DNA of 64,000 nt from Aeromicrobium panaciterrae (GTDB lineage: Bacteria > Actinomycetota > Actinomycetes > Propionibacteriales > Nocardioidaceae): positions 2,108,001 to 2,172,000 of the forward strand of contig NZ_JAVDWH010000001.1 in the NCBI RefSeq assembly GCF_031457275.1, written 5' to 3'. Shown here piece after piece: positions 151-10,795 of this stretch. Made by a program: the position numbers and the translations under genes. Within the stretch, counting starts at the first letter, position 1; each line of letters opens with the position of its first letter. The notes beneath the pieces are model-generated. The model saw only the letters and a program-made list of their open reading frames with translations, was not told where the DNA came from and made no database searches.

Positions 151-156
151 TAGTTT
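151..156 (+). promoter_or_regulatory. Candidate -10 box, leaderless start of QueC-like copy 1
   Basis: TAGTTT (TANNNT type) ends 6 nt before the GTG at 163, and no Shine-Dalgarno sequence is present. This is the spacing expected if the transcript starts at the initiation codon. Confidence 0.45.
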
Positions 157-162
157 CAGACC

Positions 163-1260
163 GTGACAATGAAGGTCGGTCGGACGCGGCAGGACGTTCT
201 TGAGGACGGACGACACCGCACAAGGGCGAAGGTGACGTTCACCGACGGCACCCGTCGAGTCCTCACGTTTGTGACGTCACCCAACATTCCGTTCGTGAAG
301 ACGAACAAGGGCGATCTGTGGCTGCCAACCATGTTGATGGTGGCCAAACGCCGTGGTGAGGATCTGGAGCTCACGGACCCAATCTCCGAACGAGCTGCCT
401 CAATCACCCGCATTCAGGACATCTTGTCGACCTGGTACCCGCAGCGGATGAAGCGAGTCGAGGTGCACGCGCCTCCCGCCGAGCGAAACCGCCGCCGACT
501 GGGGTCACCGAAGAGGATCACTGGCACGTTCTTCACCGGCGGCGTGGACTCCTTCTACACCCTGACCAAGAACGCTGATCGCATCGGAGCGATCGTCTAC
601 GGCTTCGGCATTGACGTGCCACTCCGCGAGATCGAGGCCGTCGAACGCACCAACGCACTGCTTGAGGATGTCGCGGCCGAAAGCGGGGTGCGACTCTTGA
701 CCGCGAGGACAACGATCCGCAAGTTCCTGCAACCGGACACCCGCTGGGGTAGCGAGGCCCACGGCGCGGCTCTCGCCTCTCTCGCGACTCTGTTCTCTCC
801 GATTGTCGACCGGATCCTCGTCCCTGCGTCCCACACGTACTCGAACGCTCCCAAATGGGGGTCACACCCCATGCTCGATGGCCTGTGGTCGACAGACCGT
901 CTTGCCGTCGAGCACGACGGCTCGGAAGCCGGCCGTCCCTGGAAGGCTCAAGTGATCGCCGACAATCCAGTTGCCCAGCGGAATCTCCGCGTCTGTTACA
1001 TGAAGTTCGCGGACATGAACTGCTGCCGCTGCCTCAAGTGTCAGCGCACCATGGCGGGCCTCGCAGCGATTGACCGCCTCGACGACTTCCCGACCTTCCA
1101 CGAGCCACTCGACCTCGAACTGATGGCTGCCTACGTGATGCGCCGCCGGGGAAATGACGTCACCAACGTGCGCAATCTCTACGACTTCGTCCGGCGACAG
1201 CCAGGCCACGACGACATCAAGAAGATCCTTTGGGATCTGCTCGAAAAGCCCACGGTGTAG
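163..1260 (+). CDS. QueC-like PP-loop ATPase-family protein, tandem copy 1
   Basis: A 365-residue protein. Residues 125-130 read TGGVDS, a variant of the SGGxDS pyrophosphate loop of N-type ATP pyrophosphatases. Cys278, 287, 290 and 293 are spaced C-x8-C-x2-C-x2-C, the spacing of the QueC (7-cyano-7-deazaguanine synthase) zinc site, with one extra Cys at 288. About 120 N-terminal residues that look beta-rich precede the PP-loop and are not part of ordinary QueC. QueC-like proteins adenylate a carboxylate; some belong to phage-defence systems (QatC, CBASS Cap9). No queuosine genes are nearby, so the substrate is unknown. The start is GTG, apparently leaderless. A near-identical copy follows at 1305. 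Confidence 0.75.
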   Translation: MTMKVGRTRQDVLEDGRHRTRAKVTFTDGTRRVLTFVTSPNIPFVKTNKGDLWLPTMLMVAKRRGEDLELTDPISERAASITRIQDILSTWYPQRMKRVEVHAPPAERNRRRLGSPKRITGTFFTGGVDSFYTLTKNADRIGAIVYGFGIDVPLREIEAVERTNALLEDVAAESGVRLLTARTTIRKFLQPDTRWGSEAHGAALASLATLFSPIVDRILVPASHTYSNAPKWGSHPMLDGLWSTDRLAVEHDGSEAGRPWKAQVIADNPVAQRNLRVCYMKFADMNCCRCLKCQRTMAGLAAIDRLDDFPTFHEPLDLELMAAYVMRRRGNDVTNVRNLYDFVRRQPGHDDIKKILWDLLEKPTV

Positions 1261-1291
1261 GCGGTTCAGAAGTCGCCAGGACGCCGTGGTC

Positions 1292-1297
1292 TATCTT
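1292..1297 (+). promoter_or_regulatory. Candidate -10 box, leaderless start of QueC-like copy 2
   Basis: TATCTT lies 7 nt before the GTG at 1305, mirroring the box in front of copy 1. The second copy therefore has its own promoter rather than depending on read-through. Confidence 0.45.
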
Positions 1298-1304
1298 TCT
1301 ACCC

Positions 1305-2402
1305 GTGACGATGAAGGTCGGTCGAACGCGGCAGGACGTTCTTGAGGACGGTCGACACCGCACCAAGGTGAAGGTGACTTTCACCGACGGCAGCCGTCGA
1401 GTGCTCACGTTTGTGACGTCTCCCGACATTCCGTTCGTGAAGACGAACAAGGGCGATCTGTGGCTGCCGACCATGTTGGTCGTGGCGAAACGCCGTGGTG
1501 AGGATCTGGAGCTCACGGACCCGATCTCAGAGCGGGCCGCCTCGATTGCACGCGTTCAGGACATCTTGTCGACCTGGTACCCGCATCGAATGAAGCAGGT
1601 CGAGGTGCACGCGCCTCCCGCCGAACGAACCCGTCGCCGACTGGGGTCTCCACAGAAGATCACCGGCGCGTTCTTCACCGGCGGTGTCGACTCCTTCCAC
1701 ACGTTGACCAAGAACGCTGATCGCATCGGAGCGATCGTCTACGGCTTCGGCATCGATGTCCCCCTTCGCGAAAGGGAGGCCATCGCGCGTACCAACGCGC
1801 TCCTTGAGGATGTCGCGGCCGAAAGCGGAGTTCGACTCCTGACCGCCAGGACCACGATCCGCAAGTTCTTGGCCGAGGACACCCGCTGGGGAAGCGAAGC
1901 TCACGGCGCGGCTCTCGCCACCTTGGCGACGCTGTTCTCCCCAATCCTGGACCGGATCCTGATTCCCGCCACGCACACGTACGCGACCGGTCAAAAGTGG
2001 GGTTCTCACCCCTTGCTCGATGAGCAGTGGACCACCGACAGGCTCACCGTCGAGCATGACGGAGCCGAAGTCGGTCGATCGGTGAAGGCCCAACTGTTCG
2101 CCGACAATCCTGTTGCCCAAAGACACCTTCGCGTCTGTTACGAGAAGTTCACCGACATGAACTGCTGCCGCTGCCTCAAATGCCTACGCACCATGGCGTG
2201 CCTCGCCTCGATTGACCGTCTGGACAGCTTCCCCACGTTCCATGAGCCACTCGACCTCGAGCTGCTTGCCTCGAAAACGTTGCGGCCGCGCAAGGTCGCC
2301 CAGGCCCGCGAAATCTACAACTTCGTGCGCCGCCAGCCGGGGCACGACGACATCACCGAGGTTCTCCTGGGGATGCTCCAAAAAGCTGGCCACGAAAAAT
2401 GA
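1305..2402 (+). CDS. QueC-like PP-loop ATPase-family protein, tandem copy 2
   Basis: 365 residues, exactly the length of the upstream gene and about 80% identical to it by eye. Identity is highest over the first 130 residues and lowest in the last 40. The TGGVDS PP-loop and the C-x8-CC-x-C-x2-C zinc motif are both kept, so both copies look catalytically competent. The GTG at 1305 is chosen because it aligns with the GTG of copy 1 (both begin MTMKVGRTRQDV) and has a TANNNT box 7 nt upstream; an in-frame start at 1230 would lie inside the end of copy 1. A hairpin-rich noncoding stretch and tRNA-Val follow. The role is unknown; a modification or defence enzyme is an inference. Confidence 0.75.
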   Translation: MTMKVGRTRQDVLEDGRHRTKVKVTFTDGSRRVLTFVTSPDIPFVKTNKGDLWLPTMLVVAKRRGEDLELTDPISERAASIARVQDILSTWYPHRMKQVEVHAPPAERTRRRLGSPQKITGAFFTGGVDSFHTLTKNADRIGAIVYGFGIDVPLREREAIARTNALLEDVAAESGVRLLTARTTIRKFLAEDTRWGSEAHGAALATLATLFSPILDRILIPATHTYATGQKWGSHPLLDEQWTTDRLTVEHDGAEVGRSVKAQLFADNPVAQRHLRVCYEKFTDMNCCRCLKCLRTMACLASIDRLDSFPTFHEPLDLELLASKTLRPRKVAQAREIYNFVRRQPGHDDITEVLLGMLQKAGHEK

Positions 2403-2407
2403 TTGAT

Positions 2408-2568
2408 GGTGACACCGGCCAAAGGACAGCCGGCCTCACCATCGAAGTGGGCGAAGAGGGATCCCTCGTCAAGGCCGTACGACGTGGCGGCTGCGCCGCG
2501 CCTGCGTACGGTCGGTGGTGGGGCCCGACTCGAGTACTCGCTTGGATTCACCGAAGGGCAGGGCTCCC
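2408..2568. other. Hairpin-rich noncoding stretch
   Basis: I see no convincing gene here. It contains an imperfect hairpin at 2408-2440 that could end transcription of the QueC-like pair, a perfect 12-bp palindrome GAGGGATCCCTC at 2456-2467, a 7-bp stem 2475-2481/2505-2511 around a GC-rich loop, and the left arm (2550-2568) of a long stem that pairs with 2605-2623. Confidence 0.5.
2447..2461. repeat. 15-bp direct repeat of the tRNA-Val 3' end
   Basis: GTGGGCGAAGAGGGA occurs here and again at 2622-2636, where it is the 3' end of tRNA-Val plus its flank. Duplicated tRNA 3' ends are typical attachment-site cores, but no integrase is visible and the repeats are only 175 bp apart. Confidence 0.5.
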
Positions 2569-2613: not shown

Positions 2614-2622
2614 GTCCTTCGG

Positions 2623-2696
2623 TGGGCGAAGAGGGACTCGAACCCCCGACCTCCCGGGTGTAAACCGGATGCTCTAACCAACTGAGCTATTCGCCC
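2623..2696 (-). tRNA. tRNA-Val (anticodon TAC)
   Basis: A full cloverleaf is readable on the minus strand. The acceptor GGGCGAA pairs with TTCGCCC, the D arm is GCTC/GAGC, and the anticodon stem TCCGG/CCGGG encloses TTTACAC, giving anticodon TAC. The T arm is GGGGG-TTCGAGT-CCCTC. The discriminator is A and CCA is not encoded. Confidence 0.95.
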
Positions 2697-10475: not shown

Positions 10476-10489
10476 GAGAGGAATGTCGA

Positions 10490-10795
10490 ATGGCGACGAC
10501 TGTCCAGGACGCCCCCGAGCGGTCCCGCTTCGAGATCGAGGTCGACGGTGAGCTCGCGGGATACGTCGAATACAGCAAGCACGGCGACGAGTACAAGGTT
10601 CCACACACCCGCATCTACCCGCACTACGAGGGAAATGGCCTGGGCCATGAGCTCGTACGCGGTGCTCTCGCACAGATCGCCGAGCGTGGCGGAACTGTGC
10701 TTCCCTACTGCCGATTCGTGGCTCGCGTCATCCGCGATGACCCCGAACTCACCGACCTCGTACGAGAAGAAGAACGCCCCGTCTTCGGTCTCTAG
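10490..10795 (+). CDS. Small GNAT-fold acetyltransferase-like protein (COG2388 type)
   Basis: 101 residues, the length of the minimal YjdJ/GTLF3B-type GNAT domain. Residues around YPHYEGNGLGHELV match the acetyl-CoA-binding loop (R/Q-x-x-G-x-G/A) of this short family. ATG 10490 is chosen over upstream in-frame starts because GAGAGGAA sits 6-7 nt before it. The substrate is unknown. The gene ends on CTAG, which also contains the stop of the convergent HAD gene, so the two coding regions share 4 bp. Confidence 0.8.
   Translation: MATTVQDAPERSRFEIEVDGELAGYVEYSKHGDEYKVPHTRIYPHYEGNGLGHELVRGALAQIAERGGTVLPYCRFVARVIRDDPELTDLVREEERPVFGL

Follow-up and report, generated by a model that had tools for sequence, protein, structure and literature searches.

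QueC-superfamily proteins of QatC layout encoded by a tandem gene pair in Aeromicrobium panaciterrae, and their possible role in tailoring surface glycans

PP-loop enzymes such as QueC, Cap9, ArtA and the NASAT/WbpG group use ATP-dependent chemistry that yields an amide, a nitrile or an amidine (PMC13329287, PMC13279940, PMC13060819, PMC10607449). In each of them, ATP is expended at a carbonyl group: QueC and Cap9 couple CDG with ammonia or with an N-terminal amine (PMC13279940, PMC13329287), ArtA dehydrates an amide to a nitrile, and NASAT-type enzymes transfer nitrogen onto an N-acetyl sugar (PMC13060819, PMC10607449, PMC13329287). Canonical QueC is marked by the substrate motifs YPDC, VPxRN and YxQxHxxE, and these motifs are kept in Cap9 of type IV CBASS, a minimal protein of about 185 aa (PMC13329287). 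Modification of a protein N-terminus has been shown for Cap9 and proposed for QatC (PMC13279940), which belongs to the qatABCD anti-phage system. The N-acetyl sugar amidotransferases (NASATs; WbpG, WbuX and LpNASAT) combine a PP-loop with a zinc tetracysteine and transfer nitrogen to a sugar during surface-polysaccharide synthesis (PMC10607449). A 2026 survey of the QueC superfamily considered PF06508 alone, and its polysaccharide branch consists of WbpG-type amidotransferases only (PMC13329287); our literature search for QueC-like or PP-loop proteins in connection with polysaccharides found nothing relevant.

Here, we describe a tandem pair of genes whose family lies outside PF06508, occurs in more than 20 phyla, has the layout of QatC and is tied to glycan clusters. 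Our best explanation, to which we give about an even chance, is that the pair are orphan members of a large, undescribed branch of the QueC superfamily, with a QatC-like layout, that normally serves in the synthesis or decoration of a cell-surface glycan; a sugar-polymer tailoring enzyme is a likelier identity for the pair than a phage defence. If the family does act on glycans, it would represent a new tailoring chemistry for surface polysaccharides and would provide a concrete evolutionary relative for QatC. As the reaction of QatC is still unknown, an assay on either protein could then inform the other.

The tandem gene pair and its motifs

The window (the whole stretch of 64,000 nucleotides that was analysed) carries the two genes on the forward strand, gene 1 at 163..1260 and its tandem paralogue at 1305..2402. 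Each is an open reading frame of 365 aa with a GTG start, gene 1 matches the family profile with an E value of 8.5e-125, and the two proteins share 81.5% identity (about 81-82%), in line with the estimate of roughly 80% made by eye in an earlier note on this DNA. The motifs on which that note had relied are intact in both proteins, namely an 'FFTGGVDS' PP-loop, with TGGVDS at 535..552 in gene 1 and 1677..1694 in gene 2, and a zinc-type tetracysteine motif of the form C-x8-C-x2-C-x2-C (C278, C287, C290 and C293), at 994..1041 and 2136..2183, respectively, all on the forward strand and all placed by the 93-row family alignment. Because both proteins are full length and intact and carry the family-invariant residues, the pair is no chance match. 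On the opposite strand within gene 2, ARAGORN called a tRNA-Ala(CGC) at 1710-1803, which we regard as most likely a false positive.

Each gene also has its own TANNNT box 6-7 nt before the GTG, as the earlier note had described; these putative -10 elements on the forward strand are TAGTTT (151..156), 6 nt before GTG 163 of gene 1, and TATCTT (1292..1297), 7 nt before GTG 1305 of gene 2. A TATCTT box is found at the same place ahead of a 74%-identical congeneric homologue, G732. Together, the box before each GTG and its retention in G732 support a putative leaderless transcription of each gene. In agreement with the same note, a PF06508 (QueC) profile search of the host's own genome (2.82 Mb, one contig) gave no match; similarly, neither queD nor queE was recognised among the adjacent genes that were read.

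Predicted structure and relation to known systems

The AlphaFold2 model of the gene 1 protein, calculated with the 93-row alignment, reached a pLDDT of 94.1 and a pTM of 0.93. Foldseek returned QatC as the sole significant PDB match (E 8.9e-7), and VIA aligned the model with QatC (9y02_B; Z 14.6 over 298 residues, model 1-363, rmsd 5.4), with QueC (3bl5; Z 12.7 over 177 residues, model 117-305, rmsd 3.0) and with the core of Cap9 (9nto; Z 11.1 over 166 residues); LarE, ArtA, NAD synthetase and argininosuccinate synthase were also structural neighbours by VIA. In addition, hhalign matched the family to the QatC profile over nearly the full length (E 1.2e-6), setting the GSHP loop of the family against the THP loop of QatC. 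An SGGxDS-type PP-loop, the QueC core fold and a C-terminal tetracysteine predicted to bind zinc, by which members of the QueC superfamily are recognised, are all present in the window family. Thus, the QatC and QueC structure matches and the near full-length alignment with the QatC profile identify the window proteins, on the predicted fold, as QueC-superfamily proteins of QatC layout. The earlier description of the pair as QueC-like PP-loop proteins with an extra N-terminal domain is upheld by the predicted fold, the PP-loop and the tetracysteine, and its comparison with QatC was apt, QatC being the closest solved relative. A fold lacking the zinc site of QueC, which would have counted against that description, was not what emerged, as the four cysteines are invariant in the 93 rows and the QueC core is aligned.

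The N-terminal domain of gene 1 (residues 1-118, 163..516 on the forward strand) is predicted to have the order b-b-b-b-a-b-a. Within the full model it aligns with the N-terminal region of QatC; modelled alone it reached a pLDDT of 90, and fold searches with the domain alone gave RNase-H-like topologies with a best Z of 5.8. Because the matches of the isolated domain stay below Z 6, we claim no fold for it beyond the match to QatC in the full model. The structure prediction that the earlier note had called for produced a confident model and a counterpart in QatC, and no convincing fold match for the domain by itself.

Across the 93 aligned members, residues D129, C278, N286, C287, C290, K292 and C293 are invariant, and G126, G127 and S130 of the PP-loop are near-invariant. 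The pattern C-x6-11-NC-x2-C-x-K-C occurs in 90 rows and the exact x8 spacing in just 17, which on this alignment is not a family-wide feature, and an aromatic residue follows the first cysteine of the zinc motif in most rows. By motif order, R258 and K261 would form an arginine-lysine pair where the QueC superfamily keeps a conserved lysine.

The resemblance to QatC (PDB 9y01/9y02, NF041925, PDLC02214) extends to an N-terminal domain, a QueC core and C-terminal helices, as well as an FSGGxDSF loop and an HP motif in an active-site loop; however, identity is about 13% only. It is in this context that a role in immunity has to be weighed, in which the pair would attach a deazapurine-like group to the N-terminus of a partner protein and thereby arm an anti-phage effector. 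The proposal draws on QatC ranking first both among solved structures, when whole chains are compared, and among profile matches, yet the details that distinguish QatC are not retained: its Thr pair before HP (GSLSTRTTHP) is absent from the window proteins, which have WGSHP, and its long zinc-motif spacing differs from their QueC-like C-x8-C. Neither window protein is matched by the QatC model NF041925 (280 bits), which found nothing in the host's own genome at 1e-20 and matched 5 of the 93 family rows weakly. Moreover, QatC is encoded in Qat operons with QatA, QatB and QatD, whereas the window family is encoded for the most part in glycan clusters and the pair has no QatB partner.

Canonical QueC (7-cyano-7-deazaguanine synthase, PF06508, 3bl5) shares with the window proteins the PP-loop core, the SGG/TGGxDS signature, the C-x8-C-x2-C-x2-C motif and, as in most family rows, the aromatic residue after the first cysteine, and the window proteins differ from it in their extra N-terminal domain and C-terminal helices. 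Each of the three canonical substrate motifs is found in none of the 93 rows, and PF06508 gave no match to either window protein up to E 10 and weak matches to 5 of the 93 rows (best 2.6e-4). Judged by their sequences, the window proteins are neither canonical QueC nor QatC as modelled. Cap9 shares the core fold, but it is shorter than the window proteins and keeps the QueC motifs that they lack; no CD-NTase or Cap10 gene was seen among the adjacent genes read beside the pair. The NASATs are the closest known functional analogue, with a cysteine motif of the form CxxC-Xn-[GN]xCxxC (PMC10607449) in place of the C-x8-C-x2-C-x2-C of the window proteins, and no NASAT structure is among the structural matches listed.

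Searches of both window proteins with Pfam, NCBIfam and PADLOC models gave no meaningful match and a PHROGs search gave a weak QueC-like match; none of the Pfam, NCBIfam and PADLOC models is dedicated to the family. Placement in a well-characterised metabolic PP-loop family, the other outcome that would have spoken against the earlier note, did not occur, as no Pfam or NCBIfam model matched. Weak profile similarity to DUF6395 (PF19932) was seen in 8 of the 93 rows (best 9.4e-5), and DUF6395 may be a further QueC-like branch. A DUF6395 protein is encoded at 18426-19742 of L020, a Priestia glycan plasmid region that also holds a family gene.

Spread and genome neighbourhood of the family

On plasmids, tblastn identified relatives with 23-34% identity among Bacillota, Cyanobacteriota, Alphaproteobacteria and Halobacteria, and none was found in the phage records searched. 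A scan of genome contigs with a single protein returned no relatives and a 16-row alignment was too divergent; a 6-row alignment was used, and this alignment-based scan gave at least 524 encoded relatives, of which the best 80, together with the plasmid relatives, cover more than 20 phyla. The family is sparse: it was found in 11 of the 396 genomes that represent the phylum, in 6 of 294 at the level of the order and in 3 of 49 within the genus.

The family is recurrently associated with glycan genes. Genes annotated as polysaccharide pyruvyl transferase (PPT; PF04230) and glycosyltransferase genes lie beside or near the plasmid relatives of Gemmobacter, Gloeothece, Azospirillum, Priestia and Pseudobutyrivibrio, and on actinobacterial chromosomes of the same order PPT-like, flippase and sugar-transferase genes accompany the family gene in glycan clusters, as judged from open reading frames annotated by eye. 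PF04230 proteins are not all true pyruvyltransferases. Across 37 genomes, a PF04230 gene lies within 10 kb of 21 of 38 family genes, most of them its direct neighbours, and within 700 bp of 15, where the overall density of 52 PF04230 matches per 168 Mb would predict 0.25. Genes were paired by their coordinates, and one locus (L097) was removed by hand as a likely between-contig coincidence. Home-made profiles for three PPT subtypes, adopted after a first profile had proved too narrow, found a PPT in 51 of 109 loci (within 500 bp in 38) and none in 364 kb of control DNA, with some PPTs still missed. Other recurrent neighbours are GT2 and GT4 glycosyltransferases, ABC exporters, sugar epimerases, Kdo-type kinases, carbamoyltransferases and Asn-synthase-like proteins. 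These frequencies come from a genome-contig sample that was seeded with an alignment of mostly glycan-linked rows. By the home-made profiles, 43 of the 109 loci have no PPT, GT2, GT4 or epimerase; some of these 43 hold PPTs or Asn synthases that the profiles overlooked, and a number of family loci are plain orphans beside housekeeping genes.

The Asn-synthase-like proteins, of about 600 aa, adjoin family genes in 13 of 109 loci by profile (e.g. L068 832-2616 and L061 7950-9800) and are a possible second nitrogen-transfer enzyme of these clusters. One Priestia 'plasmid' record (L032, 2633 bp) contains little besides one family gene and part of a second and is probably a misassembled piece of plasmid pS2.

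This neighbourhood bears directly on the immunity proposal. The earlier note had suggested a survey of neighbouring genes for conserved partners, and the dominant neighbourhood that was found is surface-polysaccharide synthesis. Even among orphan-type members, the neighbours match any PADLOC model at 1e-10 in only 1 of 85 cases, and no QatA, QatB, QatD, CD-NTase or Cap10-type gene adjoins the pair. The immunity role entertained in that note thus did not find support, and we consider it unlikely.

Alternatively, the enzyme might tailor peptides or proteins, with amidation or conjugation of a small peptide or of a protein terminus as its reaction. Precedents are Cap9 and possibly QatC, whose targets are protein N-termini (PMC13279940), and the asparagine-synthetase-like PesC, which works on the C-terminus of a peptide (PMC13060819); in addition, two relatives of the window proteins lie near NRPS genes. 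Among the neighbours of family members, however, it is PPT and glycosyltransferase genes that recur, and no small, conserved ORF that might be a partner was recognised; peptide or protein tailoring appears distinctly improbable.

We now return to glycan tailoring, for which known PP-loop enzymes suggest a chemistry. The PP-loop would bind ATP, and the enzyme would adenylate a carboxylate, carried either by a sugar building block or by a carboxylated substituent; attack by ammonia or another amine would then yield an amide, while a structural zinc would keep the C-terminal part of the active site in place. The carboxylated part of the glycan might be the product of the adjacent PF04230 enzyme, and the window pair would still act in trans after its move to a tRNA-Val flank. 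The family, its predicted fold, its conserved residues of catalytic type, its statistical link with glycan clusters and the upkeep of both copies are supported by the data; the carboxylate-activating chemistry, the glycan-part substrate and the in-trans action of the pair are inferred. As a tentative generalization, this zinc PP-loop class might turn a carboxylate, such as a pyruvate ketal or a uronic acid from the PF04230 neighbour, into an amide or nitrile, with paralogues serving different residues and QatC being a sister or a recruit.

Two to four family matches occur in 21 of the 109 loci, a few of which (e.g. L021 and L032) reflect split or partial genes; tandem paralogues are therefore a habit of the family and not a peculiarity of the window. 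At L060, L091, L075, L102 and L127, three or four diverged members of the family form an array, and two ancient paralogues are kept together at the Pseudomonas-type loci L101 and L107.

The tRNA-Val site and the maintenance of two copies

The window pair forms one clade with G732 and G255 (support 100), which is nested (SH-aLRT 99) among glycan-cluster members of mainly actinobacterial origin (G289, Brachybacterium and Cryobacterium). No glycan genes were recognised next to the gene in any of the three genomes of this clade, which has therefore probably moved out of a glycan cluster. Upstream of the pair is a 598-aa YhgE-type membrane protein whose gene ends at 123, and downstream are a tRNA-Val and a peroxiredoxin; no glycan, Qat or CBASS genes were seen among the adjacent genes read. 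The region further upstream (L005 10725-16000 to window 123) encodes a TetR regulator, an MMPL-type transporter ORF running into an ATPase-like part, and the YhgE-type protein, and no YhgE gene was found at the tRNA-Val site in the congeneric genomes compared.

The tRNA-Val(TAC) gene called by ARAGORN occupies 2621..2696 on the reverse strand, and a 15-bp perfect copy of its 3' end, an att-like scar, is present at 2447..2461 (an exact repeat with 2622-2636), 175 bp from the intact tRNA. The congeneric genomes compared differ in the 3' flank of this tRNA, and the G732 copy lies at the same flank in opposite orientation. A variable flank and a partial tRNA copy are marks of an insertion site, and the best reading is that the window pair was acquired horizontally. 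A sporadic distribution and an island-type location at a tRNA flank are typical of defence cargo, and to this extent they favour the immunity proposal.

The isolation of the clade raises the further possibility that it was re-used for small-molecule metabolism unrelated to glycans, making a cofactor, amino-acid or natural-product amide or nitrile. The clade is alone in all three genomes where it is found, the superfamily is catalytically versatile (PMC13329287), and LarE, ArtA, NAD synthetase and argininosuccinate synthase are among the structural neighbours noted above. However, the clade is nested among glycan-linked members and no biosynthetic cluster lies beside it; we regard such re-use as rather unlikely.

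The host's own PPTs were compared with the partner type of the family and are not of it. Its three PF04230 proteins have no similarity to the PPT subtypes linked to the family and represent a different subtype that is common in the genus, with a PF04230 match in 40 of 49 congeneric genomes versus the QueC-like gene in 3 of 49, so that their presence does not track the gene. Because these proteins are of another subtype and PF04230 is common in the genus regardless of the gene, the glycan role proposed for the pair is drawn from its ancestry.

Occurrence of the gene in so few congeneric genomes would also fit useless cargo, that is, two recently acquired, drifting copies. In the 47%-identical relative G255, a frameshift is present in the G run of the PP-loop codons (L021, about 10485-10500), which marks either a pseudogene or a sequencing error. 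Both window copies, by contrast, are intact with a conserved promoter box, and gene 1 and gene 2 differ by a dS of 0.59 and a dN of 0.12, giving a dN/dS of 0.20, with values of 0.17-0.20 for the window copies against G732. Such ratios show that both copies are maintained by purifying selection, and they largely refute the drifting-cargo explanation, which is very improbable.

Silent divergence (pS) between the copies is uneven along the gene: it is 0.18 over codons 1-60 and climbs to 0.53 over codons 301-360, and pS of the copies against G732 over the same codons is about 0.4-0.75. The simplest reading is an old duplication whose 5' halves were homogenised by gene conversion, not uniform divergence. 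The earlier note had seen in the two copies 'selection for divergence or dosage'. It was right that two functional copies are kept (dN/dS about 0.2), but 'divergence' was too strong, because the 5' halves were converted toward each other and divergence is confined to the C-terminal parts.
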